The position numbers and the translations under genes were made by a program. Below, piece by piece: positions 46,017 through 57,696 of a DNA stretch of 64,000 bases. This DNA is from an uncultured Flavobacteriales bacterium. Lineage in GTDB: Bacteria > Bacteroidota > Bacteroidia > Flavobacteriales_D > Sanyastnellaceae. How positions within the stretch are numbered: position 1 is the first letter of the stretch; each line of letters starts with the position of its first letter. Below the pieces are notes generated by a model. That model searched no databases and had not been told where the DNA came from. It saw only the letters and a program-made list of their open reading frames with translations. The DNA is taken from positions 1 through 64,000 of the forward strand of contig CALJFZ010000008.1 in assembly GCA_938074325.1 (NCBI GenBank). The letters run 5' to 3'.

Positions 46017-49000
46017 ATGATGCAAAAACATCGCCCCCGACCAATCCAAGCAGCCATTTTGTGGGCCATAGTGGCATGCGCATGGTGCCTCGAGGCTCCT
46101 GAACTCAGCGCCCAGGGCTTGTTTGCAAATGCATCTGAATCCGCCGGTGTAAATGTTGACGGACTCCACCACGCCGTTGCCATAGGCGATTTCGATCGAG
46201 ACGGACGCGAGGACATCTACGTAGGCACCAAGTTTGCGCCGAACAGCCTGTTCCGAAACCTGGGCAACATGGAATTTGAAGAAGTCGCTGTGCCAGCAGG
46301 CGTGGATGACGGCGGAACGACCAATGCCGTGCTGTGGGCCGACTTCAACAACGACGGTTGGCTGGACTTGGTTACCGGCAATTACCTCGACCCCAATCGA
46401 CTTTTCCTGAACAACGGCGATGGAACGTTTGACGATGCCACGGAAGATTGGAATGCCGGCAACGCAGGACCGTGCAGGAGCTTGCATGCGGCTGACATCG
46501 ATGGAGATGGTTGGCTCGACCTGTATGTCGTCAACATCAACAGCCACAACGCCATGTTGCGCAACATGGAAGGTACCGGATTTCAGAACATCACCTTTTC
46601 ATCCGGTACGGTCGACACCGGCATTGGAATGGGAGCGCTCTTCTTTGACGCCGACAACGACGGCGATGTGGATTTGTATGCCACGCACGACGGCAACCAG
46701 GTCAACAAGTTCTTCCGCAACAACGGTGAAGGGGGATTCACCCAAGACGCTGCGGGCATCGGATTGGACTACCAAGGAAATTGCATGGGAGTCGATGCGG
46801 CCGACATCAACCACGATGGATGGATGGACCTGTACATCACAGACCTCTATCCCAGCGAACTCTTCCTCAACAACGGTGATGGCACCTTTTCTGCCATTGG
46901 AGACGCGGCCGGTGTGGACGATTCGGGAATGACATGGGGTTGCATCTTTTTCGATTACGACCACGATTCAGAAACCGACCTATACATCGTCAATGACTAT
47001 GCGTTTGCCCCCACATCGAACCGCCTGTACCGCGGACTGGGTGATACGACTTTCGCCTGGGTCAGCGAGGGCGATGCCGTACTCGAACACGACCACAGCG
47101 ATTATGGTTTGGCCGCTGGTGACCTCGACGGAGATGGAGACTTCGATTTGGCGATTGCCACCACAGGTTCACCCACACAACCGGGGTTCCAAGTGCTCGA
47201 AAACCTGAATGAGACAGGGCATTTTGCGGTGTTTGAACTGGAGGGAACAGCCTCCAATCGTTCGGCCATTGGTGCGCGCATTGAAGCGCACTTTGATGGA
47301 TTGGTGCGCTACGATGAAATCCACTGCGGTCAAGGGTACAGCGGTTCGAGTTCCTTCGATGTCCACTTCGGGCTCGGCGATGCAAACTTGGTGGATTCCC
47401 TTATCGTTCGGTGGCCGAGCGGACTGATCTCGACCCACGGCCCTTTTGCTGCAGACAGCGTGCACGCCATTTTGGAACCGGGAACGGAACCCTGGCTCAC
47501 CCAAGGATGCACCGATGCCGATGCGTGCAATTTCCAATTGGCCGCCACCGAAGACGACGGTTCTTGCTTTTTCCCTCAAGCCGGTTTGGACTGCAGCGGG
47601 GAGCCCTTGGAAGATTTCCCGACGTTGGAAACCCACAGCATCGCACGGCTGTGGAACGAGGCCACCCTATTGAGCATTCGCCACGACTGGGCTCGACCTA
47701 CGGTTCACGCCCGGAACCTTTGGCACACATCCGCGCTCATGTACGACGCATGGGCGGCTTGGGGCCAGGACACGGTGCTTGGAGCTCAACCTTGGTTGCT
47801 CGGAAACACCCAAGGATCCTTCGCCTGTCCTTTTGAAGGAGTGGACACCAACCTCTCCGCTGAAGAACGGCTGGAAGCGCGCCGCTTGAGCATCAGCTAT
47901 GGCGCGTATCGCCTGCTGCAGCACCGATTTGCCAATGCGCCCCGAGCGGAACGCATCGCTGCGCACATCGATTCCCAAATGGAGGTGCTCGGCTACGACA
48001 CGGCCTGGCATGAAACGGACTACACCAACGGAACGATTACGGAGCGGGCCGCCTCCTTGGGAAACTACCTCGCCGAACAGTACATCGCCTATGGGTTGCA
48101 AGACGGATCGTTTGAAGTCATCGATTACCAAAACACGTATTACAACCCGATGAATTGGAACCTGGTCATGGACGAGCCGGGCAATCCCAATATGTTCTTC
48201 CCCAACCGCTGGCAACCCCTGCAGTTGGCCGAATTCATCGATCAAAGCGGCAACGAAGGTTCGAACATCTCCCCGGACTTCTTGAGTCCGGAGTGGGGAA
48301 ATGTCGCGCCCTTTGCGATGACGCCTGCCGACACGGTCATGTTTGAACGGTTGGGGAGTTGGTACACGCTTTACCACGATCCCGGACCGCCGCCACAAGT
48401 CGACATCAACGCAGAAATCGGATTGGAAAGCGATTACAAATGGGGCCACACCCTTGTGGGGCTTTGGGCATCGCACCTCGATCCGGCCGATTCTGTGGTG
48501 TGGGACATCAGCCCCGGTTCATTTGGATGGAATGGACATGTGCCTTCCAACATGCTAGAGGCCCGTGACTATTATGCGGTAGACGGTGTCCCCGTCGTAC
48601 CGGGGGTCACGCCAGGGCACGCTATGAATCCCACCACCGGGGAAGCTTACGCACCGCAACCTGTGCTGCGCGGCGATTTCACCCGCGTACTGGCTGAATA
48701 CTGGGCGGATGGCCCGGATTCCGAGACGCCACCCGGGCATTGGTTTACCCTTCTGAATTACGTCAACGACCAATCTGAGACCCAACGGAAATGGAGAGGA
48801 TTGGGCGAAACCTTGCCGCAATTGGATTGGGATGTCATTGGGTATTTCTCGATGGGAGGTGCCATGCACGACGCGGCCATTGCGGCGTGGAGTTGTAAAG
48901 GTTGGCACGATTACGTTCGACCGGTATCGGCATTGCGTTGGATGGCGGACCGCGGCCAATGCACAGATCCCGAATTGCCCAACTACCACGGTGCAGGACT

Positions 49001-49763
49001 GCCCATCATACCCGGCTACATCGAGCAAATCGGCCCGGAGGACCCCGTGGAATTGCGCGGTGAAAGCAACGAACACCTGTACGAAATGAAGATTCGGTGT
49101 TGGAAAGGACCCGATTTCATCGAGGTACCAGCGTTGCAGATGGCCGGCGTGGGATGGATACGTGCACGGGAGTGGTGGCCCTACCAGCGGCCCACGTTCG
49201 TGACGCCGCCGTTCGCGGGGTACGTTAGCGGGCATTCGACCTTCAGCCGTGCTGCAGCCGAAGTGCTCACCGCGCTAACCGGTGACCCGTATTTCCCGGG
49301 CGGCATGGGGGCATTTCCGGTCGAGGCGCATGAATTCCTGGTGTTCGAAGACGGACCTTCCACCGACTTCGAATTGCAGTGGGCAACCTACCGCGACGCA
49401 GCGGACCAAAGCGGACTTTCGCGGATCTGGGGCGGCATCCACCCGCCGATGGATGATTTCCCCGGACGGGCAATGGGCGAGATCGTCGGCATGGACGCTT
49501 TCATGTTGGCAGAACAATACGCCTTCCCCCTGTTGGGCACCGATTGCTTTGAGGCCGGCGGCTATCCGTGCCTTTGCCCCGGTGACTTCAATTCAGATGG
49601 GTTGCGGAACCTGCCTGATTTACTGTTGCTGTTGGTGCACTTCGGTGAGATTGTGGACCTTGGAGGGAACGGTGCTTCGCCGGTCTTGGACCTTGACGGC
49701 AGCGGCGTCATCAACACCGGCGATTTGCTCGGTATGCTGACGGTGTGGGGCCAACCCTGTTAA
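46017..49763 (+). CDS. Giant secreted FG-GAP/UnbV - vanadium-haloperoxidase-like - dockerin-like protein
   Basis: A 1248 aa multidomain exported protein. A signal peptide (1-33, ending LSAQ) is followed by FG-GAP/VCBS repeats (about 35-400) with repeated calcium loops such as DFDRDGREDIY, DIDGDGWLDLY and DADNDGDVDLY. An ASPIC/UnbV segment (about 415-490: NRSAIGARIEAHFDG, FGLGDANLVDSLIVRWPSG) and a CTDADACN...EDDGSC motif come next. Residues 540-1170 form a vanadium-dependent haloperoxidase/PAP2 fold with all vanadate-site motifs: K961-x6-R968-P, SGH (1071-1073), and SR1136-x5-H1142-x3-D. It ends with a dockerin-like EF-hand pair (DFNSDGLRNLPDLL, DLDGSGVINTGDLL). No T9SS sorting domain is seen. 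Halide oxidation or phosphatase activity is unproven. Confidence 0.9.
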   Translation: MMQKHRPRPIQAAILWAIVACAWCLEAPELSAQGLFANASESAGVNVDGLHHAVAIGDFDRDGREDIYVGTKFAPNSLFRNLGNMEFEEVAVPAGVDDGGTTNAVLWADFNNDGWLDLVTGNYLDPNRLFLNNGDGTFDDATEDWNAGNAGPCRSLHAADIDGDGWLDLYVVNINSHNAMLRNMEGTGFQNITFSSGTVDTGIGMGALFFDADNDGDVDLYATHDGNQVNKFFRNNGEGGFTQDAAGIGLDYQGNCMGVDAADINHDGWMDLYITDLYPSELFLNNGDGTFSAIGDAAGVDDSGMTWGCIFFDYDHDSETDLYIVNDYAFAPTSNRLYRGLGDTTFAWVSEGDAVLEHDHSDYGLAAGDLDGDGDFDLAIATTGSPTQPGFQVLENLNETGHFAVFELEGTASNRSAIGARIEAHFDGLVRYDEIHCGQGYSGSSSFDVHFGLGDANLVDSLIVRWPSGLISTHGPFAADSVHAILEPGTEPWLTQGCTDADACNFQLAATEDDGSCFFPQAGLDCSGEPLEDFPTLETHSIARLWNEATLLSIRHDWARPTVHARNLWHTSALMYDAWAAWGQDTVLGAQPWLLGNTQGSFACPFEGVDTNLSAEERLEARRLSISYGAYRLLQHRFANAPRAERIAAHIDSQMEVLGYDTAWHETDYTNGTITERAASLGNYLAEQYIAYGLQDGSFEVIDYQNTYYNPMNWNLVMDEPGNPNMFFPNRWQPLQLAEFIDQSGNEGSNISPDFLSPEWGNVAPFAMTPADTVMFERLGSWYTLYHDPGPPPQVDINAEIGLESDYKWGHTLVGLWASHLDPADSVVWDISPGSFGWNGHVPSNMLEARDYYAVDGVPVVPGVTPGHAMNPTTGEAYAPQPVLRGDFTRVLAEYWADGPDSETPPGHWFTLLNYVNDQSETQRKWRGLGETLPQLDWDVIGYFSMGGAMHDAAIAAWSCKGWHDYVRPVSALRWMADRGQCTDPELPNYHGAGLPIIPGYIEQIGPEDPVELRGESNEHLYEMKIRCWKGPDFIEVPALQMAGVGWIRAREWWPYQRPTFVTPPFAGYVSGHSTFSRAAAEVLTALTGDPYFPGGMGAFPVEAHEFLVFEDGPSTDFELQWATYRDAADQSGLSRIWGGIHPPMDDFPGRAMGEIVGMDAFMLAEQYAFPLLGTDCFEAGGYPCLCPGDFNSDGLRNLPDLLLLLVHFGEIVDLGGNGASPVLDLDGSGVINTGDLLGMLTVWGQPC

Positions 49764-51976
49764 GGGGCCGTGTGCACCACCAATTCATCCAAAAACAACC
49801 ACGAGGAGGAGCTCGCCGCGTCGTGCCAGTCTGGACAGGGGCCTGGATTGCGGGCCTCAAATCGGACCCATTTAGCTTCGGCCCCTACCGCCACGGACAC
49901 CCGCTGAACGTCTTGCAAGTCGTTGGGCTCAAATGTGGGCCTGCCTCCGGCAAATGGTTGCTCCGCCCAGTCCCCTTCCCAATGCTCCCCGTCCACCGAC
50001 CATTGGAAACGCACCGAATCGGGCAGGAAAATCCACGCGTCTTGGTAGCGATAAGCTTGCATGCTCAATGAATCCACGTGGTGCGTGCCATCCAACGAAA
50101 TGGTCACGCCCATGGATTGGCCTTGAGCTGCCTGCCACGATCCATCCCGAAAATCCTGAGAACCCAGCCGCCCATCGGCAAGGCCTTGTTCGCCACGTCC
50201 GGGGTAATAGGCATTGATGGCGTGATCCAATTCAACAGGCTCAAACGCTCCCACATGACCCGCCAATGGAAAAACCAACGGATTCCCCATGCTCACCCCT
50301 TTTCGGGTCAATTCCACGACAAGCGTTCCTTCCCCGCGAATGCGCTCCACCTCGCCTACACCGAAGACCGCTGTCGGTTCCGATGCACCGTGGGGCACGA
50401 AGGACGCCGTACCGTCTACACCCGACATGGCCGGCACCAACGATACCTGCAAGGTCGCCGCGTCGGTTCCTCGCTCCCAGTCCAACCCCAACGGCACTGT
50501 TTCCCAGCCGTACGTCACCCCCCAAGCATCGAGCCTGCTGTAGTGCGCGTCCATTCGCGTTTTGAAGTCGGACCAATCGCGTTGCGCGGCAGGGCTCCAG
50601 AGGACCTCTGCCATCGCCACGAGCCGCGGATACACCTTCGACTCCACCAAATGCTGCGGAGCACGCTCGCTCCACATGTTGCATTCCCCACCGAGGATGC
50701 GGCCCGCGCCTTCCAGCCCATCCGGTACGGACTCAAAACCGTAAACCTCCTCCAAATCCGTGGACTCGACCGGGTAATCAAAATAGCAGTGGGACGTCGG
50801 CGACATGATGGCATCGTGGCCCATGGCCACGGCGTCGCGGCCGCCGTCCATGCCGCGCCAAGACTGCACCGTCGCGCCCGCCGGCAAACCGCCTTCGAGG
50901 ATTTCGTCCCAGCCGATCATCTTGCGACCATTCTCCTCGAGGTAGCGGCCGATCTGACCGATGAACCAAGATTGCAACTCGTGTTCGTCGTGCAGGCCTT
51001 CTTCGGTAATGCGGCGCTGGCATTTCGGGCATTGTTCCCACCGAACCTTTGGGGCCTCGTCCCCACCGATGTGGATGTACTCTGATGGAAACAACTGCAT
51101 GACCTCGTCCAAAACCGTTTTCAAGAACGCCAACGTAGTGTCCTGGCCGGCGCAGTAAATGTCTTTGAACACCCCCCAATCGTGCGGCACCTCCAAGGCG
51201 TCTCCTGTGCAGCCTAACCACGGGTAAGCCGCCAATGCCGCTCGGCTGTGCCCGGGCAATTCGATTTCGGGAATAACCCGGACGTTGCGCTCTGTGGCGT
51301 AGGCGACGATGTCCCGAATTTGGTCTTTCGTGTAAAACCCACCGTGGACCGATCCATCGGCCTCTGTACGCCAAGCCCCTTTAGCAGTCAATTCGGGATA
51401 GGCATCGATTTCCACACGCCAACCTTGGTCTTCCGTAAGGTGCCAATGCAGCACATTCATTTTGTGCAGGGCCAGCAGGTCAATGGTGCGCTTGATAAAA
51501 TCGGGCTCCATGAAGTGCCGGCAACAATCCAAAAGCAACCCGCGGTGCTCGAACCGCGGAGCATCTTCTATCCGCCCACAGGGCAGCTTACCCCCTTCGG
51601 CGGTCATGGCCATCCAGCGCAACGTGGTCAGCGCATGCTGCACCCCGGCGGGGGTTGAAGCCTTGATTTCAACTTCCTTCGGCGCTACGTCCAGCACATA
51701 TGCTTCCTCGGCCAATTCACCGTCCAGAATCACTTGAAGGTGCACCGCTGCCCCCTCAGCGGCGTCTTCATCTGCTTCAAGCCACGCCACCCAGAAATCC
51801 ATACGGTCTGCCCACACGTCCGGCACGACCATGTCCCAAGTGCCGGTCAGCGCGCAACTTCCCGCTTCCGGGAGGAAGGATTGAGGCAAGGGAATGAGGT
51901 CCATTTTGGCTTCATTTGGCGTGCCACATCCGAACATCAAAACGACCAAAGGGAGAAGGAGAAAGCGATTCAGCAT
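49760..51976 (-). CDS. GH20 beta-N-acetylhexosaminidase, lipoprotein
   Basis: Removes terminal GlcNAc/GalNAc from glycans. ATG 51976 gives a lipoprotein signal with lipobox LMFG-C17. The GH20 N-terminal domain (about 30-140) is followed by the catalytic barrel: HRGLLLDCCRHF, HWHLTEDQGWRVEI, PEIELPGHS and IHIGGDEAPK with the Asp306-Glu307 catalytic pair, then VQSWRG. The region after about 560, including DSLSMQAYRYQDAWIFLP, resembles a discoidin (F5/8 type C)-like C-terminal domain. It is the last gene of a minus-strand sugar locus and shares a TTAA with the convergent giant gene. TATTTTGC 3 nt before the ATG may be its own -7 box. Confidence 0.94.
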   Translation of the reverse strand: MLNRFLLLPLVVLMFGCGTPNEAKMDLIPLPQSFLPEAGSCALTGTWDMVVPDVWADRMDFWVAWLEADEDAAEGAAVHLQVILDGELAEEAYVLDVAPKEVEIKASTPAGVQHALTTLRWMAMTAEGGKLPCGRIEDAPRFEHRGLLLDCCRHFMEPDFIKRTIDLLALHKMNVLHWHLTEDQGWRVEIDAYPELTAKGAWRTEADGSVHGGFYTKDQIRDIVAYATERNVRVIPEIELPGHSRAALAAYPWLGCTGDALEVPHDWGVFKDIYCAGQDTTLAFLKTVLDEVMQLFPSEYIHIGGDEAPKVRWEQCPKCQRRITEEGLHDEHELQSWFIGQIGRYLEENGRKMIGWDEILEGGLPAGATVQSWRGMDGGRDAVAMGHDAIMSPTSHCYFDYPVESTDLEEVYGFESVPDGLEGAGRILGGECNMWSERAPQHLVESKVYPRLVAMAEVLWSPAAQRDWSDFKTRMDAHYSRLDAWGVTYGWETVPLGLDWERGTDAATLQVSLVPAMSGVDGTASFVPHGASEPTAVFGVGEVERIRGEGTLVVELTRKGVSMGNPLVFPLAGHVGAFEPVELDHAINAYYPGRGEQGLADGRLGSQDFRDGSWQAAQGQSMGVTISLDGTHHVDSLSMQAYRYQDAWIFLPDSVRFQWSVDGEHWEGDWAEQPFAGGRPTFEPNDLQDVQRVSVAVGAEAKWVRFEARNPGPCPDWHDAASSSSWLFLDELVVHTAP

Positions 51977-52003
51977 GGTGCAAAATAGCGCACCGAGGAC
52001 CAA

Positions 52004-53506
52004 TCAATCGGCAAACCACGCACGGACCCGCTCGGGATCAACGCGGTGGACGGTCCCGTCAAACAAAGCGGTGGACACGTTTTCTTGGGTGCGGCACGAA
52101 GCGTGGAATTGGTTCACGCCGAGTTTCAGCCACTCGGCCCGTTGACCGGGAACAACCCCACTCCCTACCGTGGCATCAAACCCCATTTCAACCAGTCGCT
52201 TGATGCGGTCCTGGCCGTCCCATGCCTGGGGGGCTCCCCCGCTCGTCAGGATGCGCCGCACACCACATTCGGCCAGGTGCTCAGCAGCCCCTTCCCAATC
52301 GCTGCACGCATCGAACGCTCGGTGAATGACCAACCGGTGCGCGCCGAATTCCTGCGCCCAATGCTGGATCAGTGCTGCGTCCCATTGGCCATTTTCCAAC
52401 AAGCCTCCGACGACCGCGCGGCTCGCTCCCGCCTTCAGGACGGCCTCAATTTGACGGGTCATCAGCTCCTTCTCGCTTTCGGTATAAACGAAATGGCCGG
52501 CGCGGCAACGGATGAGCGCGTGAATGGGCAAGCCAGCGGCACACGCCATGCGCACGTCCGACTCCGTAGGGGTCAGTCCCCCGCACTCCCAATGCGCGCA
52601 GAGCTCCACGCGGTGCGCACCGGCATCAGCCGCAACCTGCACGTCGCTCGGGGAGCTGGCACACACTTCGAGCTCGAAGCCCGGCAAAAAAGCGTGGGCG
52701 TTTTGAACGCTGGCCACATCGTTCAAGCGCGTCAGGTCCAGCACCGGTTCGGCCACATTGCATGGCTCGAGCGCCAAACCATCGTCCACCATGGCTTGCA
52801 CCGCAGCGGGCAATTCCATCTCACCGCGATCCGGGTGCGGTTTCAGCGACTGCAGCCGCGGGAGAAGCCATTCGGGTGAAAGGCGAAACAAGTTCATGGA
52901 CACGCGCACCGAGCCCTGCTGAGCGAGTTGATGCACCAAGGCTTCATCTGGCTTTTCGACAATGCGGCGCACCTTGCCCTTTTGGGATTCGATGACCGCA
53001 AAGGCAAAGGTCTTTTCGGCGGACAACCCCAACTGCGCTCGGTCAAAAGCCAATAACGCCTGTCCCTCTGGTTGAATGCGGAGCTGCGCCAATGCCCGGG
53101 ACGTGGGCAAGTTGTCACCGTTGCACAAGACGAAGGCTTCGCCCTGCGCCACGGCATCCTGCTCCAGCGCACACAGAACGGCATGGCCCGTGCCCTTCGG
53201 TTCCGGTTGGACGGCTGTGGCCAACCGCATGCGCTCCCCTGTCACACCTTCGTTCCACTTGGCTAAAAATGATGGCGTGATGGTGTCGCTCGGTGTAAGG
53301 ACGACGGTTGCCTCGGTAAACCCGGCTCGCAATGCTTGTTCGAGGATCAGTTGCAGCATGGGCTCCCCATTGGGGCCAACCCGCATCATGGGTTTTGGTC
53401 GCGAAAGCGCTTCCGTTGTTTGAGCGTGTTGCGGACGGGCAGCAGCGCTCGAACGCATGCGGGTGGCCCGTCCAGCGGCCAAGATGACGATGCGGTTACA
53501 AGTCAT
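52004..53506 (-). CDS. Fusion of sugar-phosphate nucleotidyltransferase and CutC-family TIM barrel
   Basis: A 500 aa two-domain protein from ATG 53506. Residues 1-275 are an NTP_transferase: ILAAGRATRM (8-17), PKGTGHAV, the metal/nucleotide GDN (130-132), and VEKP. Residues 277-498 are CutC (PF03932): LEVCASSPSDVQVAADAGAHRVELC, the GGLTPT loop, CRAGHFVYTESE, VVGGLLENGQWD, VIHRAFDAC, RILTSGGAP and QFHAS (first motif partly degenerate). CutC was named for copper homeostasis, a disputed role. Fusion to a sugar-1-phosphate nucleotidyltransferase beside a GHMP kinase points to carbohydrate metabolism. Its ATG is 10 bases after the GHMP kinase stop. Confidence 0.9.
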   Translation of the reverse strand: MTCNRIVILAAGRATRMRSSAAARPQHAQTTEALSRPKPMMRVGPNGEPMLQLILEQALRAGFTEATVVLTPSDTITPSFLAKWNEGVTGERMRLATAVQPEPKGTGHAVLCALEQDAVAQGEAFVLCNGDNLPTSRALAQLRIQPEGQALLAFDRAQLGLSAEKTFAFAVIESQKGKVRRIVEKPDEALVHQLAQQGSVRVSMNLFRLSPEWLLPRLQSLKPHPDRGEMELPAAVQAMVDDGLALEPCNVAEPVLDLTRLNDVASVQNAHAFLPGFELEVCASSPSDVQVAADAGAHRVELCAHWECGGLTPTESDVRMACAAGLPIHALIRCRAGHFVYTESEKELMTRQIEAVLKAGASRAVVGGLLENGQWDAALIQHWAQEFGAHRLVIHRAFDACSDWEGAAEHLAECGVRRILTSGGAPQAWDGQDRIKRLVEMGFDATVGSGVVPGQRAEWLKLGVNQFHASCRTQENVSTALFDGTVHRVDPERVRAWFAD

Positions 53507-53516
53507 GGTCCCAAGT

Positions 53517-54572
53517 TCAGCAATCTTCCGCAAACGAATCAATGCGTACGCCTTCTTCTCCCAAGGCAATGGGATGCACGGTCACCTCTTGCGTTTTGAA
53601 TGCTTCAACCGCTCGTGCCCGCTGGCCCCTTGGAAAGACGGCAAACGCCGTACCACCTCCCCCGGAGCCGTTGATTTTACCGCCGCACGCTCCCAACTGC
53701 ATCGCCTGCTCAAGCAATTGATCAATTCGAGGGGTGGACACCTTCAACCCTTCTGAGAGCCACCGGTGATGGACCGTGAGGCATTGCCCCAAGTCCAATT
53801 CGTGGGCGCTGGCTTCCAGCAGCAGCGTCCCGCGCTCGGAAACAACGCGGATTCCACCCGTAGCATTCATCAACGCGTGGTCATCTGCGGACCAGTGTAC
53901 CGGCCGAGGCGGTTCGTACCCGACGTGCAAATCCGCCCCCCATTCTTGCAACAGGTGCATCCGTCGGTGCTTAGCCCGTTGCAAAATCGCCAAGGTATCT
54001 TTCGGTTCAACTGAGTCAATGAGCAACCAATCACCGGAAGGCAATGGCAGCTCCTCGCATCGGAAGTCCGGCGCAAAACGAATGCGCTGCACCCCACCCG
54101 ATGCGCACACGGCGTGGTCCATCATGCCACCGGGCTCATCGAAAAACTCGACCTCTGTCCGCCAAGCAGCTTGCGCTACCCAACTGGGGTTCCACGCCTG
54201 TCTGCTGAGGGAGGCGATCAAGGCACACCAAGCAACTGTCAATGCGCTGGAGCTGCTCGCTCCGGCTTGCTGCGGGATGGTGCTGGTAACCTTGCATGTC
54301 CAACCAGTGGCCGGAAGCCAACCTTCCTTTTTTGCAACATGCAAACCCGCAAGCCAGTAGTTTCGAGGCTGCGGTTGCGGCAACGCATCCAAGTCCCACG
54401 TGTGCACCTCATCCAAATCGAGCAAATGCAATTCGACCCGGCGATCGCTCCGGGCATGACCGCGCAACCGGCAACGCAAATCAATGGCCGATGCAGCCAC
54501 CGGCAATTGAAAATAATCCTGGTGTTCACCAAACAAGCAAATGCGTCCCGGCGCTGAGACTTGCAGCTTCAT
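53517..54572 (-). CDS. GHMP-family sugar kinase (galactokinase-like)
   Basis: A 351 aa ATP-dependent small-molecule kinase. The N-terminal APGRICLFGEHQDYFQLPVA is the galactokinase/sugar-1-kinase form of the substrate motif (GEHTDY in GalK). The ATP loop QQAGASSSSAL is intact, and the C-terminal GGKINGSGGGGTAFAVFP is the third GHMP motif. It probably phosphorylates a sugar at C1, and the product would suit the adjacent nucleotidyltransferase. ATG 54572 overlaps the symporter stop by 4 bases (ATGA), so translation is coupled. The exact sugar is unknown; mevalonate-pathway kinases are less likely because of the GEHQDY signature. Confidence 0.9.
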   Translation of the reverse strand: MKLQVSAPGRICLFGEHQDYFQLPVAASAIDLRCRLRGHARSDRRVELHLLDLDEVHTWDLDALPQPQPRNYWLAGLHVAKKEGWLPATGWTCKVTSTIPQQAGASSSSALTVAWCALIASLSRQAWNPSWVAQAAWRTEVEFFDEPGGMMDHAVCASGGVQRIRFAPDFRCEELPLPSGDWLLIDSVEPKDTLAILQRAKHRRMHLLQEWGADLHVGYEPPRPVHWSADDHALMNATGGIRVVSERGTLLLEASAHELDLGQCLTVHHRWLSEGLKVSTPRIDQLLEQAMQLGACGGKINGSGGGGTAFAVFPRGQRARAVEAFKTQEVTVHPIALGEEGVRIDSFAEDC

Positions 54573-56335
54573 GCCAAAGGCTTCTTGACTTTGTTCAAAG
54601 CGACCACTCCCCATGCACTTCCCACTGCCAGCAAAGCGAGAACGCCTGCGGTTGACCCGTCTCCATACAACCAGCTGCCTGTAGCGATGAGCGCTCCGTA
54701 CACCCCGACACACCCGAGCACCATGGAGAGAATGCCTCGAGGCACTGGCCAAGGCTCCGACTCGGACGTTCCAGCCCAGCGCTTCCAACCGGGCCCTCCT
54801 GGGTTCACTTGCTCCACGAATGCCTTCAACGTAGCTTCCGATTCAGCCGGGGTGATGAACGTTGCCACCACCCAAATCAGCGTTGTGAGCAAGGAACCCC
54901 AGATGAGCTTCTGATGGGCGGCCAGTTCAACAATTCCCAAGCCATCGTGCACAAAGGTGAAGTACCCCGCAACCACCAAAGACCCGCCCATTGCGACAAG
55001 CTCTGTCCACGCATTGATGCGCCACCAAAACCAACGCAAGATGAACAAACCACCCGTACCTGCTCCGATGAGCAGCAGCAAGTTGAACGCTTGGCCCGCG
55101 TCGGTCAACAGCAACCCCAGTCCGCTGCCCAAAATCAGCGAAACCACCGTAGCCAATCGGCCGGCTCGGACTTGTTCAGCGTCGGTTGCTTCGGGACGGA
55201 TGAACCGCACCCAAAAGTCGTTGACGAGGTAACTCGCCCCGAGGTTGAGTTGGGTGGACATGGTGCTCATAAAGGCGGCTAACAAGGAAGCCGCGACCAA
55301 TCCCAAAAGCCCCTCCGGCAGCAAAGAGAGCATGGCCGGATAAGCCAAATCGTGGCCGATTTTGTCGGCGGGAATGTTTGGGAATGCGGCTTGCAAATCA
55401 CTCAACGTGGGAAAAACGATGATGGACGCCAAGGCGATCAAGATCCACGGCCACGGTCGCAAGGCATAGTGTGCGACGTTGAACAGCAGCGTAGCTCCCA
55501 CCGCGTGGTTTTCGTCTTTGGCGCTGAACATGCGTTGGGCGATGTATCCACCGCCTCCCGGTTCTGCACCGGGATAATAACTCGCCCACCATTGCACCGC
55601 GAGCGGCACGAGCAATATGGGCACCCACTGGGAAGGATCACCCATGTCCGGGAACATGCTTGTTTTGGAAGCAACATCGGCGTGGGCCAGCAGCGCATCC
55701 AACCCACCGACAGCGTCTAAGTTTAAGATGTAACAGCAAGCCCAGACGGATCCGATCATTGCCAAAACGAACTGCACAAAGTCCGTCAAAATCACCGCGC
55801 GCAATCCACCGAGCGTGCTGTACAAAAGGGTAATGACCCCCGTGACGAGCAAGGTCAGCCAACCAGGCCACCCCAGCAAAATGCCGCCCAACTTGATGGC
55901 CGCAAGCGATACGGTTCCCATGACGAGCACGTTGAACACCAAACCCAGGTAAAGGGCCCGGAATCCACGCAGCACTGCAGCGGGCTTGCCACCGTAACGC
56001 AATTCGTAGAATTCGATGTCCGTCATCACGCCTGATCGGCGCCACAGCCTGGCGTAAACGAAGACGGTCAGCATGCCCGTGAGCAAAAAGGCCCACCACC
56101 CCCAATTGCCGCTCACGCCCTGCTCACGGACGAGGCCCGTAACGAGATTGGGGGTGTCGGTCGAAAAGGTCGTTGCCACCATGCTGATGCCCAAAAGCCA
56201 CCACGGCATGTTGCGGCCGGCCAGGAAAAATCCAGCAGCAGAATTACCGACCACGCGGGAAGCCCAAATCCCGACCGCGAGGGCCAAAAGAAAGTACGCG
56301 CCGATGATGGCCCAGTCCAATGCTGTTATCTCCAT
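54569..56335 (-). CDS. Sodium:solute symporter (SSS/SGLT family)
   Basis: A Na+-coupled transporter of 588 aa with about 13-14 helices. The N-terminal DWAIIGAYFLLALAVGIW and SAAGFFLAGRNMPWWLLG, then ATTFSTDTPNLVTG, LYSTLGGLRAVILTDFVQF (Na+ site region), and AAFMSTMSTQLNLGASYLVND are standard for the SGLT-like branch. It is the likely importer for sugars released by the linked GH20. ATG 56335 follows a TATCCTTG box by 4 nt. The YjbR gene ends 22 bases upstream. Confidence 0.94.
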   Translation of the reverse strand: MEITALDWAIIGAYFLLALAVGIWASRVVGNSAAGFFLAGRNMPWWLLGISMVATTFSTDTPNLVTGLVREQGVSGNWGWWAFLLTGMLTVFVYARLWRRSGVMTDIEFYELRYGGKPAAVLRGFRALYLGLVFNVLVMGTVSLAAIKLGGILLGWPGWLTLLVTGVITLLYSTLGGLRAVILTDFVQFVLAMIGSVWACCYILNLDAVGGLDALLAHADVASKTSMFPDMGDPSQWVPILLVPLAVQWWASYYPGAEPGGGGYIAQRMFSAKDENHAVGATLLFNVAHYALRPWPWILIALASIIVFPTLSDLQAAFPNIPADKIGHDLAYPAMLSLLPEGLLGLVAASLLAAFMSTMSTQLNLGASYLVNDFWVRFIRPEATDAEQVRAGRLATVVSLILGSGLGLLLTDAGQAFNLLLLIGAGTGGLFILRWFWWRINAWTELVAMGGSLVVAGYFTFVHDGLGIVELAAHQKLIWGSLLTTLIWVVATFITPAESEATLKAFVEQVNPGGPGWKRWAGTSESEPWPVPRGILSMVLGCVGVYGALIATGSWLYGDGSTAGVLALLAVGSAWGVVALNKVKKPLA

Positions 56336-56357
56336 GGAACAAGGATAACCAATGGGC

Positions 56358-56717
56358 TTACAATCCAAGCGCCTTGCGCTGCTTTTGTGAAAAACCTGCA
56401 ACTACCCGTTCGTAGCTGTGATCGATGAGCTCGAGGGCCAGAGCGCGCGGCACATCCTCTTCCGAACGAACGGTGTTCCAATGTTTTTTGTTGGCATGGT
56501 AGCCTCCGACAATGCCGATGTACTGCTCCCGTAGTTCAACCGCATATTCGGGGTCGCACTTCAGCGTCATTCCCTCGAATGCATCGATGTCCGCCAGGGC
56601 GAAAAGCTTGCCAGCGACCTTCCACACACAGGTCTTTTCGTCAAAAGGAAATTCCTCTGTTACGTGGGCTTTGGCAAGGCATCGATCGCGCACCTCTTCA
56701 AACTCAAATGTTCTCAT
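56358..56717 (-). CDS. MmcQ/YjbR (DUF419) family protein
   Basis: A 119 aa small cytoplasmic protein. The pattern EFPFDEKTCVWKVAGKLFAL, LKCDPEYAVELREQY and GGYHANKKHWNTV is the YjbR family, whose structure is a double-wing fold proposed to bind DNA; function is not known. It lies at the head of the minus-strand sugar locus but may be independent. It is divergent from the LTD-domain gene with 55 bases between. Confidence 0.93.
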   Translation of the reverse strand: MRTFEFEEVRDRCLAKAHVTEEFPFDEKTCVWKVAGKLFALADIDAFEGMTLKCDPEYAVELREQYIGIVGGYHANKKHWNTVRSEEDVPRALALELIDHSYERVVAGFSQKQRKALGL

Positions 56718-56772
56718 CGGTTTTGGGCTTTTGGCGATTAAATTGCAACGATTTTCACAAACACCAAATCAC

Positions 56773-57696
56773 ATGCGATTCACTTTCCTCCAATTGGCAT
56801 TGGCCTTGACCCTGCCCGCTCTGGTGCAAGCGCAATGCACCGAAATCTTCATTTCCGAGTACTGCGAAGGCACCGGCAACAACAAAGGTGTCGAGTTTTA
56901 CAACCCCACCGGCGAGGCCATCGACCTCTCTTCCTACCAACTTCAGCGTTGGAGCAATGGTGAAGGCGGTGCGACGGATGAAACGGACCTCATAGGGACC
57001 ATCGAGCCTTACGGCACGTGGGTCTTGGTGAACGGCCAAACAGAAGATGTGGACTTGGGCGGCGGCGCCACTTCGCCCGCATGCGATCCAGAAATGCAAG
57101 CGTTTGCAGACCAATTGGACAACCCGTACCCGGCCCCGACCTACATGAACGGCGATGACGCACTCGTCCTGGTCAAAAACGAAACCACGGTGGTGGACAT
57201 TTTCGGCAAGCCCGGTGAAGACCCCGGCGTGGCGTGGACCAACGATGAGGCAAACGGTTACATCGACATCGGCGACGGTGCCGCTTGGTTGACTTCCAAT
57301 CACACCCTCCGCCGCAAGTACGACATCATGGGCGGCGTGACGGTTCCACCTGTAAGCTTCAACACCTTCCTCGAGTGGGACACCTTGCTCGTGAACACCT
57401 GGGACGGCTTAGGCATGCACAGCTGTGCTTGCAGCCCGAACGCTTTGGAAGAATTGCCTGCGGTTGAGACTGCAGTATTCCCGAACCCATCTACCACTGG
57501 CAATGTGACCTTGACGGCGACGGAAGCCATCCAACGCGTCACCGTCTACTCGACGACCGGACAGTTGCTCCGCGACGAAAACATGGCGCAGGCGGTTCGT
57601 GAAATTGCTTTGACGGACCTAGCGAGCGGAACCTACTTCGTGAACATCCACTTGACCGAAGGGCGCACGTTCGCGCACCGCGTGGTCATCCAATAA
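56773..57696 (+). CDS. Secreted lamin-tail-domain (LTD) protein with T9SS type A sorting domain
   Basis: A 307 aa exported protein. ATG 56773 gives a signal peptide (MRFTFLQLALALTLPALVQAQ). An LTD beta-sandwich follows: IFISEYCEGTGNNKGVEFYNPTGEAIDLSSY and GTWVLVNGQ, NGDDALVLVKN, VVDIFGKPGEDPG (long blocks abridged). The end is a T9SS type A sorting domain (VFPNPSTTGNVTL, VTVYSTTGQLL, GTYFVNI, VVIQ), so it is exported across the outer membrane. LTD domains often accompany extracellular nucleases. The TonB receptor ATG lies 10 bases after the stop, and a PLD-like gene follows it. Confidence 0.92.
   Translation: MRFTFLQLALALTLPALVQAQCTEIFISEYCEGTGNNKGVEFYNPTGEAIDLSSYQLQRWSNGEGGATDETDLIGTIEPYGTWVLVNGQTEDVDLGGGATSPACDPEMQAFADQLDNPYPAPTYMNGDDALVLVKNETTVVDIFGKPGEDPGVAWTNDEANGYIDIGDGAAWLTSNHTLRRKYDIMGGVTVPPVSFNTFLEWDTLLVNTWDGLGMHSCACSPNALEELPAVETAVFPNPSTTGNVTLTATEAIQRVTVYSTTGQLLRDENMAQAVREIALTDLASGTYFVNIHLTEGRTFAHRVVIQ

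Follow-up and report, generated by a model that had tools for sequence, protein, structure and literature searches.

A nucleotidyltransferase-CutC fusion encoded in a putative amino-sugar salvage operon of Flavobacteriales

The DNA stretch analysed here (the window: 64,000 nt, positions 1 to 64,000 of contig CALJFZ010000008.1, from an uncultured bacterium of the Flavobacteriales) encodes a sugar nucleotidyltransferase (NTase) and a CutC TIM barrel in one polypeptide. The fusion is confirmed as a real gene, and it forms a compact operon with genes for a sodium:solute symporter (SSF), a galactokinase-type sugar kinase and a hexosaminidase of glycoside hydrolase family 20 (GH20). We see about an even chance that it is a bifunctional protein of an N-acetylhexosamine (HexNAc) salvage operon, with the CutC half being an enzyme of that pathway. 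CutC is found from bacteria to humans, and its copper role has been doubted in print and lacks a mechanistic explanation (the name CutC is also borne by the choline trimethylamine-lyase); the combination of the fusion with a sugar kinase and a hexosaminidase narrows the question of its function to a short list of assayable substrates.

Results

The fusion gene

The fusion gene is a single intact frame on the minus strand, starting with ATG at 53506-53504 and ending with TGA at 52006-52004, with no internal stop codons. An alternative open reading frame (ORF), 52004-53569, differs only by an upstream TTG start in the same frame, and the ATG at 53506 is the one that aligns with the start of relatives. 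The gene and its two parts are as follows.

52004..53506, minus strand: NTase-CutC fusion gene, 500 aa (Pfam, alignment; AlphaFold mean pLDDT 90.7, pTM 0.91)
52691..53506, minus strand: nucleotidyltransferase domain, residues 1-272, motifs LAAGRATRM, RPKPM, GTGHAV, NGDN, EKP, SMNLFR and DLT (Pfam PF00483, invariant columns, fold matches)
52007..52684, minus strand: CutC TIM-barrel domain, residues 275-500 (Pfam PF03932; AlphaFold mean pLDDT 96.4; Foldseek 1x8c and 3iwp)

Three Pfam profiles match the protein above their cut-offs: NTP_transferase (PF00483, residues 34-243, E 4.8e-13), NTP_transf_3 (PF12804, residues 7-142) and CutC (PF03932, residues 278-471, E 2.5e-40, covering profile positions 2-200 of 202). 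In the predicted structure the last helix of the NTase (263-273) runs straight into the first strand of CutC (278-283). An earlier note, made from the sequence of the window, had described one continuous frame with an NTP_transferase domain followed by a near-complete CutC domain, adjoined by a sugar kinase and a sugar symporter. The ORF reading and Pfam bear this out, all motifs quoted in that note are found in the protein, and both neighbours are where it placed them; the GH20 hexosaminidase directly downstream, an informative neighbour, was absent from it. The architecture is a new variant made of known parts, and as far as open-access searches reach, no CutC-NTase fusion has been reported in the literature.

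Distribution, ancestry and selection

Among 199 genomes surveyed in the order, 15 have the full-length fusion: 14 of 16 genomes of the window's genus (g1; in the other two there is no match, G143, or one weak match, G174) and G049 from genus g5. A second g5 genome with the fusion is G604 (locus L200). Moreover, the fusion is present on 21 contigs of a named collection (L092-L112, with L107 cut by the contig end), many of which represent the same genomes as those of the order-wide set; their taxon labels are Flavobacteriales, Crocinitomicaceae, Bacteroidetes, Bacteroidia, or simply bacterium. The genus carrying the fusion comprises small bacteria known from environmental genomes.

The fused relatives are 50-65% identical to the window protein, and the columns that never vary include NTase catalytic motifs as well as conserved residues of CutC. 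For pairs with computable synonymous divergence (dS 0.17-2.29; saturated for the most distant pairs, including the window versus L033), omega ranges from 0.06 to 0.13 in the NTase half and from 0.06 to 0.14 in the CutC half, hence both are under purifying selection. Since the fusion recurs in many assemblies with low omega, a frameshift or a chimaeric assembly is ruled out, and the possibility raised by the earlier note, that the fusion is confined to one assembly, is not realized.

In a quick tree of CutC domains (98 rows, SH-aLRT support only) the fused domains form one clade of 16 rows (SH-aLRT 99), nested in a 38-row clade (SH-aLRT 98) together with CutCs of genera g11-g13. Because the fused domains form one clade, the fused form most simply had a single origin. 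The CutC matches in 392 genomes of the phylum included no other open frame longer than 401 aa (G292), compared to 525 aa in the window. A candidate triple fusion of kinase, NTase and CutC in G137 (a 933-aa open frame) was rejected, as several stop codons lie between NTase and CutC.

The operon and the substrate of its kinase and NTase

The genes around the fusion are as follows.

54569..56401, minus strand: sodium:solute symporter (SSF), which opens the conserved gene order (Pfam)
53517..54572, minus strand: galactokinase-type GHMP sugar kinase with the GEHQDY signature (Pfam and signature)
49760..51976, minus strand: GH20 beta-N-acetylhexosaminidase (Pfam)
56358..56717, minus strand: YjbR/MmcQ gene, upstream (Pfam; also in 5 other loci of the same genus)

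The start codon of the kinase (54572) overlaps the stop codon of the symporter as ATGA, the kinase ends 10 nt ahead of the fusion start, and the start codon of GH20 (51976) lies 27 nt past the fusion stop; the four genes from the symporter to GH20 constitute a compact operon. The N-terminus of GH20 (LVVLMFGC), judged by eye, reads like a lipoprotein signal, and the enzyme looks secreted. The YjbR/MmcQ gene is probably outside the pathway. No sigma-70-like promoters were found in 49600-57000, with the mean of 2.2 in shuffled sequences, which says little for Bacteroidota.

The kinase matches PF00288, PF08544 and PF10509 above cut-offs, and all 20 kinases that we looked at carry the GEHQDY signature. 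It is below the galactokinase equivalog cut-off (87.8 versus 443 at best). The NTase half scores 49.7 bits with PF00483 (cut-off 21.2), and G12, R13, R16, K38, GT105-106, GD130-131 and EKP184-186 are invariant over 15 fused rows. None of the NCBIfam models listed is matched above its cut-off (best 67.4 bits versus 292.1); in particular, the fusion does not pass as a GlmU equivalog (best 48.6 bits versus 718; TIGR01173, 41.2 versus 366.85). In the whole-model fold search, the CutC entries are followed by UDP-glucose pyrophosphorylase, GlmU and RmlA, the solved structures nearest to the NTase half.

These data bear on the possibility that the sugar processed by the operon is galactose or another non-acetylated one, so that adjacency of GH20 is misleading. 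The solved structures nearest to the kinase are galactokinases, it has the GEHxDY signature, and the NTase is as close to UDP-glucose pyrophosphorylase and RmlA as to GlmU. However, the N-acetylgalactosamine (GalNAc) kinase 2a2c also matches the kinase, the hydrolase of the operon belongs to GH20, a family acting on N-acetylhexosamines, and elsewhere CutC occurs together with N-glycan hydrolases (see below). We consider a non-acetylated substrate unlikely, though worth keeping in view.

Facing the operon is a plus-strand gene (46017-49763) for a protein of 1248 aa, whose first half contains FG-GAP repeats and UnbV_ASPIC and which has a weak match to VCPO_2nd (the helical bundle of vanadium chloroperoxidase) near the end; it is conserved in 12 loci including the window.

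Gene order and an alternative fusion in related genera

The order symporter, kinase, NTase, CutC, GH20 is conserved in genera g1, g5 and g12, while the boundaries of proteins differ. The partner of the NTase is CutC in g1 and g5, whereas it is the kinase in g12 and two loci of g13. In the sister genus g12 (L050, L205, L206, L207) kinase and NTase form one protein and CutC is separate (in one more g12 locus, L049, the contig end precedes the symporter); in the g13 loci L046 and L047 the fused kinase-NTase is followed by CutC and GH20. Kinase and NTase are also fused in locus L064 of genus g11. Three neighbouring domains are thus fused in two different ways.

At E 1e-12, 52 of the 399 genomes searched in the order have the kinase and NTase; they belong to the window's family except G704 (family f9), where the pair (L199, G704:C96) resides on a 4.8-kb contig and may represent transfer or contamination. 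Among genomes covered by both searches, all 27 with the kinase and NTase have a CutC match, versus at most 119 of 172 others; these 27 genomes are related and do not constitute independent cases. In genus g11 a second, diverged CutC is present per genome (L195-L198), and no GH20, kinase, NTase or symporter genes were seen in the fetched stretches around it.

The CutC half

The CutC half scores 138.6 bits with PF03932 (cut-off 23.3), and misses the cut-off of the equivalog PRK11572 (NF008603; 114.2 versus 311). Predicted alone, it yields a confident model (the mean pLDDT of 96.4 given above), and the best solved matches of this model are CutC entries (1x8c: E 5.6e-25, TM 0.90). Conservation was scored on 60 CutCs, none of them from the fused or the g11-g13 rows; in these, 26 positions are at least 95% conserved. 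The window domain retains 24 of them, including E280, R299, E301, C303, R333, R335, E345, H395, D399 and H468, and because of this the fused domain is judged not to have decayed, its core set being intact. The two others, G363 and T393, are R and V, respectively; both positions are altered in all 16 fused domains, while at least 58 of the 60 other CutCs have G and T there. These clade-specific changes could be a sign of altered specificity.

An alternative is that the CutC half is non-catalytic, being a sensor, a scaffold or an oligomerisation domain that regulates the NTase. The position of the junction, right after the last NTase helix, and the confident joint model (pTM 0.91) would permit coupling of the halves, and two conserved positions are altered in all fused domains. 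On the other hand, the 24 retained positions include charged ones, omega in the CutC domain is low, and stand-alone CutCs are found in a similar sugar context. We hold a non-catalytic role improbable.

The first folds other than CutC in the Foldseek list are MJ1099, 2-keto-3-deoxy-6-phosphogalactonate aldolase, a putative phosphonomutase, thiamin phosphate synthase and PdxS, mostly enzymes with small phosphorylated substrates (phosphoribosyl pyrophosphate is named in one entry title). They suggest a version in which the substrate of CutC is a phosphorylated amino sugar, converted for example by 2-epimerisation or isomerisation, with the phosphate held at the glycine-rich ends of strands 7 and 8 (GSGV, HASCR). 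Such a version would explain the fold neighbours, and is consistent with weak, non-significant profile matches to hexulose-6-phosphate synthase, HisA and ribulose-phosphate epimerase (E 0.04-0.2). However, TIM barrels are mutually alike, with dihydrodipicolinate synthase and designed barrels ranking only slightly lower in that list, and G448 is retained in only 11 of 16 fused domains. Moreover, the kinase should yield a 1-phosphate, whose closed ring bars ordinary 2-epimerisation. We regard a phosphorylated substrate as a minor possibility, comparable to that of a non-acetylated sugar.

CutC neighbourhoods elsewhere

Neighbourhoods of CutC were counted in 60 phylum-wide loci, hand-picked for genus breadth from 130 matched genomes before the contexts were seen, and in 26 order-wide loci of CutC-bearing genomes (L066-L091; L071 is from genus g11). 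Neighbour ORFs were called mechanically, and BLAST clusters were named from one to three Pfam-scanned members. Phylum-wide, 32 of 60 loci have a gene from the GH20, GH2, GH92, Asparaginase_2 or NagB-PIG-L cluster at most 4 genes from CutC; order-wide, 17 of 26 loci do. CutC lacking any recurrent association with sugar genes, the other outcome that would have counted against the proposal of the earlier note, is thus not what was observed.

In the order, GH20 is within 4 genes in 17 of 26 loci, being adjacent to CutC in 15, in 14 of those upstream; GH2 (beta-mannosidase-like) immediately follows CutC in 10 loci, and GH92 and Asparaginase_2 are within 4 genes in 5 and 4 loci, respectively. Since GH20 is upstream of CutC in most of the order and downstream in the window's family, this pairing probably arose more than once. 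Phylum-wide, Asparaginase_2 is within 4 genes in 26 of 60 loci and adjacent in 24 (25 genera, 10 families), with none seen at a distance of 5-10 genes (335 genes); GH20 and GH2 are within 4 genes in 5 loci each, GH92 in 3 and NagB-PIG-L in 4. The single asparaginase checked against PDB proved to be a true glycosylasparaginase (1p4k, E 2.7e-129, motif HDTIGM; best isoaspartyl peptidase, E 7.6e-38). Such neighbour enzymes dismantle the N-glycan core down to GlcNAc-Asn (GlcNAc, N-acetylglucosamine). In open-access searches no literature was found linking CutC to glycosylasparaginase or to an N-acetylglucosamine or hexosaminidase operon, nor any on its gene neighbourhood in relation to sugar and copper or on MicL together with copper sensitivity.

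In Xanthomonas, the nix N-glycan cluster and cutC (XAC3091) share a genomic region, in which genes for hexosaminidase, beta-mannosidase and alpha-mannosidase (XAC3071-3084) are located; cutC was read by the authors as a gene of copper metabolism or resistance (PMC6718126).

Several individual loci deserve mention. A NagB (Glucosamine_iso) domain fused to a PIG-L de-N-acetylase is encoded near cutC in L131:5864-7816, L139, L159 and L164 (one member was Pfam-scanned, the others were assigned by clustering). In a Granulosicoccaceae metagenome-assembled genome (MAG; L126:1-1547) a ROK-family kinase gene overlaps cutC. In a Eubacteriales MAG (L122:211-6773) sugar ABC transporter genes are followed by alpha-L-fucosidase, cutC and a UROD-family protein gene, and upstream gene lengths in L118 are the same; in Agrobacterium (L117) an M81 peptidase gene and an MFS gene are by cutC instead. 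In two of the alignments, rows L117 and L118 have surplus N-terminal residues from early starts. In the window's genus CutC is not beside the glycosylasparaginase-like gene, typed by profile alignment, which in the window's genome (L215:7925-12153) sits between MMPL and UbiA genes; the arrangement in L216 and L217 is similar by gene lengths.

Amino-sugar genes of the genus

Profile searches covered 22 genomes of the genus, several of them incomplete (the window's own is 88% complete), and 14 control genomes. The classical Nag pathway was not recovered in the genus: NagB was found in none of 22 genomes (control, 9 of 14), and NagA above the cut-off likewise in none of 22 (control, 7 of 14). ROK kinases were absent as well (0 of 22; control, 12 of 14), and both NagB and ROK kinases were absent (0 of 11) from the 11 best genomes of the genus. 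In the whole family NagB was found in 3 of 81 genomes. Asparaginase_2 is present in 20 of 22 genomes of the genus. A hexosaminidase without NagB or a clear NagA points to activation, and not breakdown, of the released sugar.

Aldose 1-epimerase (PF01263) was found in 1 of 22 genomes (control, 10 of 14). This raises the possibility that CutC is a mutarotase, a counterpart of GalM in a Leloir-like HexNAc route, converting the beta anomer released by GH20 or beta-mannosidase into the alpha anomer needed by galactokinase-type kinases. The gene set would then parallel the series of glycosidase, mutarotase, kinase and nucleotidyltransferase, and this version would explain both the recurrent neighbours of CutC that release beta-linked sugars and the lack of a PF01263 match in 21 of 22 genomes. 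Several observations argue against it. HexNAc mutarotates unaided at a useful rate, we know of no TIM-barrel mutarotase, CutC coexists with PF01263 in E. coli, Caulobacter and Lactococcus from the control lists, and alpha-L-fucosidase and the GH92 alpha-mannosidase also occur near CutC. A mutarotase seems improbable.

Discussion

Proposed function of the fusion and of CutC

Returning to the N-acetylhexosamine salvage operon, GH20 enzymes release N-acetylhexosamine, SSF proteins import small solutes with sodium, galactokinase-type GHMP kinases make sugar-1-phosphates, and NTases make nucleoside diphosphate (NDP) sugars. In this operon, the seemingly secreted GH20 would free GlcNAc or GalNAc from glycans, the symporter would take it up, the kinase would form a sugar-1-phosphate, and the NTase half would form an NDP-sugar, most likely with UDP. 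The CutC half would most likely be an isomerase, epimerase or mutarotase whose substrate is the amino sugar, free or phosphorylated, changing the form of the sugar between import and activation and thus supplying the kinase or the NTase with the right one. We infer here the identity of the substrate, the order of the steps, the reaction of CutC and the action of four proteins in series on one sugar.

The earlier note had proposed for CutC the role of an enzyme in sugar processing. The repeated occurrence of sugar genes near CutC gives good support to this as a functional class, short of proof; the exact reaction, suggested there to be that of an isomerase, epimerase or lyase, is shown by none of the data. 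The neighbours point to N-acetylhexosamine as the substrate, which goes beyond that proposal.

A number of observations weigh against the salvage role as we describe it. The genomic context names no reaction for CutC. In genus g11 the symporter-kinase-NTase cluster is apart from CutC and GH20, CutC is not in the fetched stretch of four g13 loci with kinase and NTase (L065, L208, L209, L210), and G083 (g12, 97% complete) has symporter, CutC and GH20 with no match to the kinase or NTase. The kinase signature is compatible with galactose as well as GalNAc. In 28 of the 60 phylum-wide loci, and in 9 of the 26 from the order, no listed sugar gene is within 4 genes of CutC. Weak NagA-profile matches are present in 19 of 22 genomes of the genus, and weak matches to BadF-type proteins, possible amino-sugar kinases, in 16 of 22 (one above the cut-off, none in the window's genome). 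GlmS is above the cut-off in 21 of 22, hence salvage is not the sole source of amino sugars. As two conserved positions are altered in all fused domains, the activity of the fused form may differ from that of other CutCs. Finally, copper-sensitivity phenotypes have been published for CutC in the worm and in human cells, with sensitivity raised on knock-down, and the review reporting this concludes that CutC is involved in copper homeostasis (PMC11083455).

The copper role of the CutC family is disputed in print, and the remaining alternative is that CutC handles copper or some other metal, its fusion to the NTase being incidental. Besides the family name and these phenotypes, it is in line with the invariance of C282, C303 and C471 in 15 fused rows. 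In the same review, however, CUTC is described as binding copper weakly and as neither an importer, an exporter, a classic chaperone nor a buffer (PMC11083455), and for CutC of the minimal cell another author considers copper binding unlikely, one cysteine being missing, and suggests zinc (PMC4993169). Moreover, no copper gene was found among the recurrent neighbour clusters scanned, which are not all of the clusters. Of all alternatives considered, a metal-handling role of the fused domain is the one we hold least probable.

Extended to the whole family, the data suggest tentatively, at somewhat less than even chance, that CutC from mycoplasmas to man is an amino-sugar enzyme of glycan salvage, and that the copper label is historical. 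In that case the fusion and the N-glycan neighbourhoods would place CutC between release and activation of N-acetylhexosamine, a placement that we likewise hold to be slightly less probable than its opposite. If true, this would be a real change of view, and the family now filed under copper would need re-annotation.

Comparison with known systems

The fused domain shares the fold and 24 of 26 conserved positions with the CutC family (PF03932; PDB 1twd/1x7i/1x8c, 3iwp, 4r9x, 2bdq). Unlike other members, it is C-terminal to an NTase, is encoded in a putative amino-sugar operon, forms a clade of its own and carries G363R and T393V. Likewise, the NTase half has the fold and the NTP-binding and catalytic motifs in common with GlmU, UDP-glucose pyrophosphorylase and RmlA, while the C-terminal half of the fusion is CutC in place of the acetyltransferase domain of GlmU.

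At the level of gene neighbourhoods, the glycosylasparaginase-CutC and GH20-CutC-GH2 loci of Bacteroidota combine the same CutC family with N-glycan hydrolases, but there GH20 is mostly upstream (downstream in the window) and the kinase and NTase have no match. The nix cluster of Xanthomonas resembles these loci in having cutC and N-glycan hydrolases in one region, with no fusion reported in the available part of the source (PMC6718126).

A parallel in the order of reactions is provided by FKP-type kinase-pyrophosphorylases and the Leloir pathway, where a sugar kinase is likewise followed by a nucleotidyltransferase. The likeness to the FKP type extends to protein architecture in g12, g13 and one g11 locus, where kinase and NTase are fused together. 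In contrast to these systems, the kinase of the window is of the galactokinase type and N-terminal, and CutC takes an extra place.

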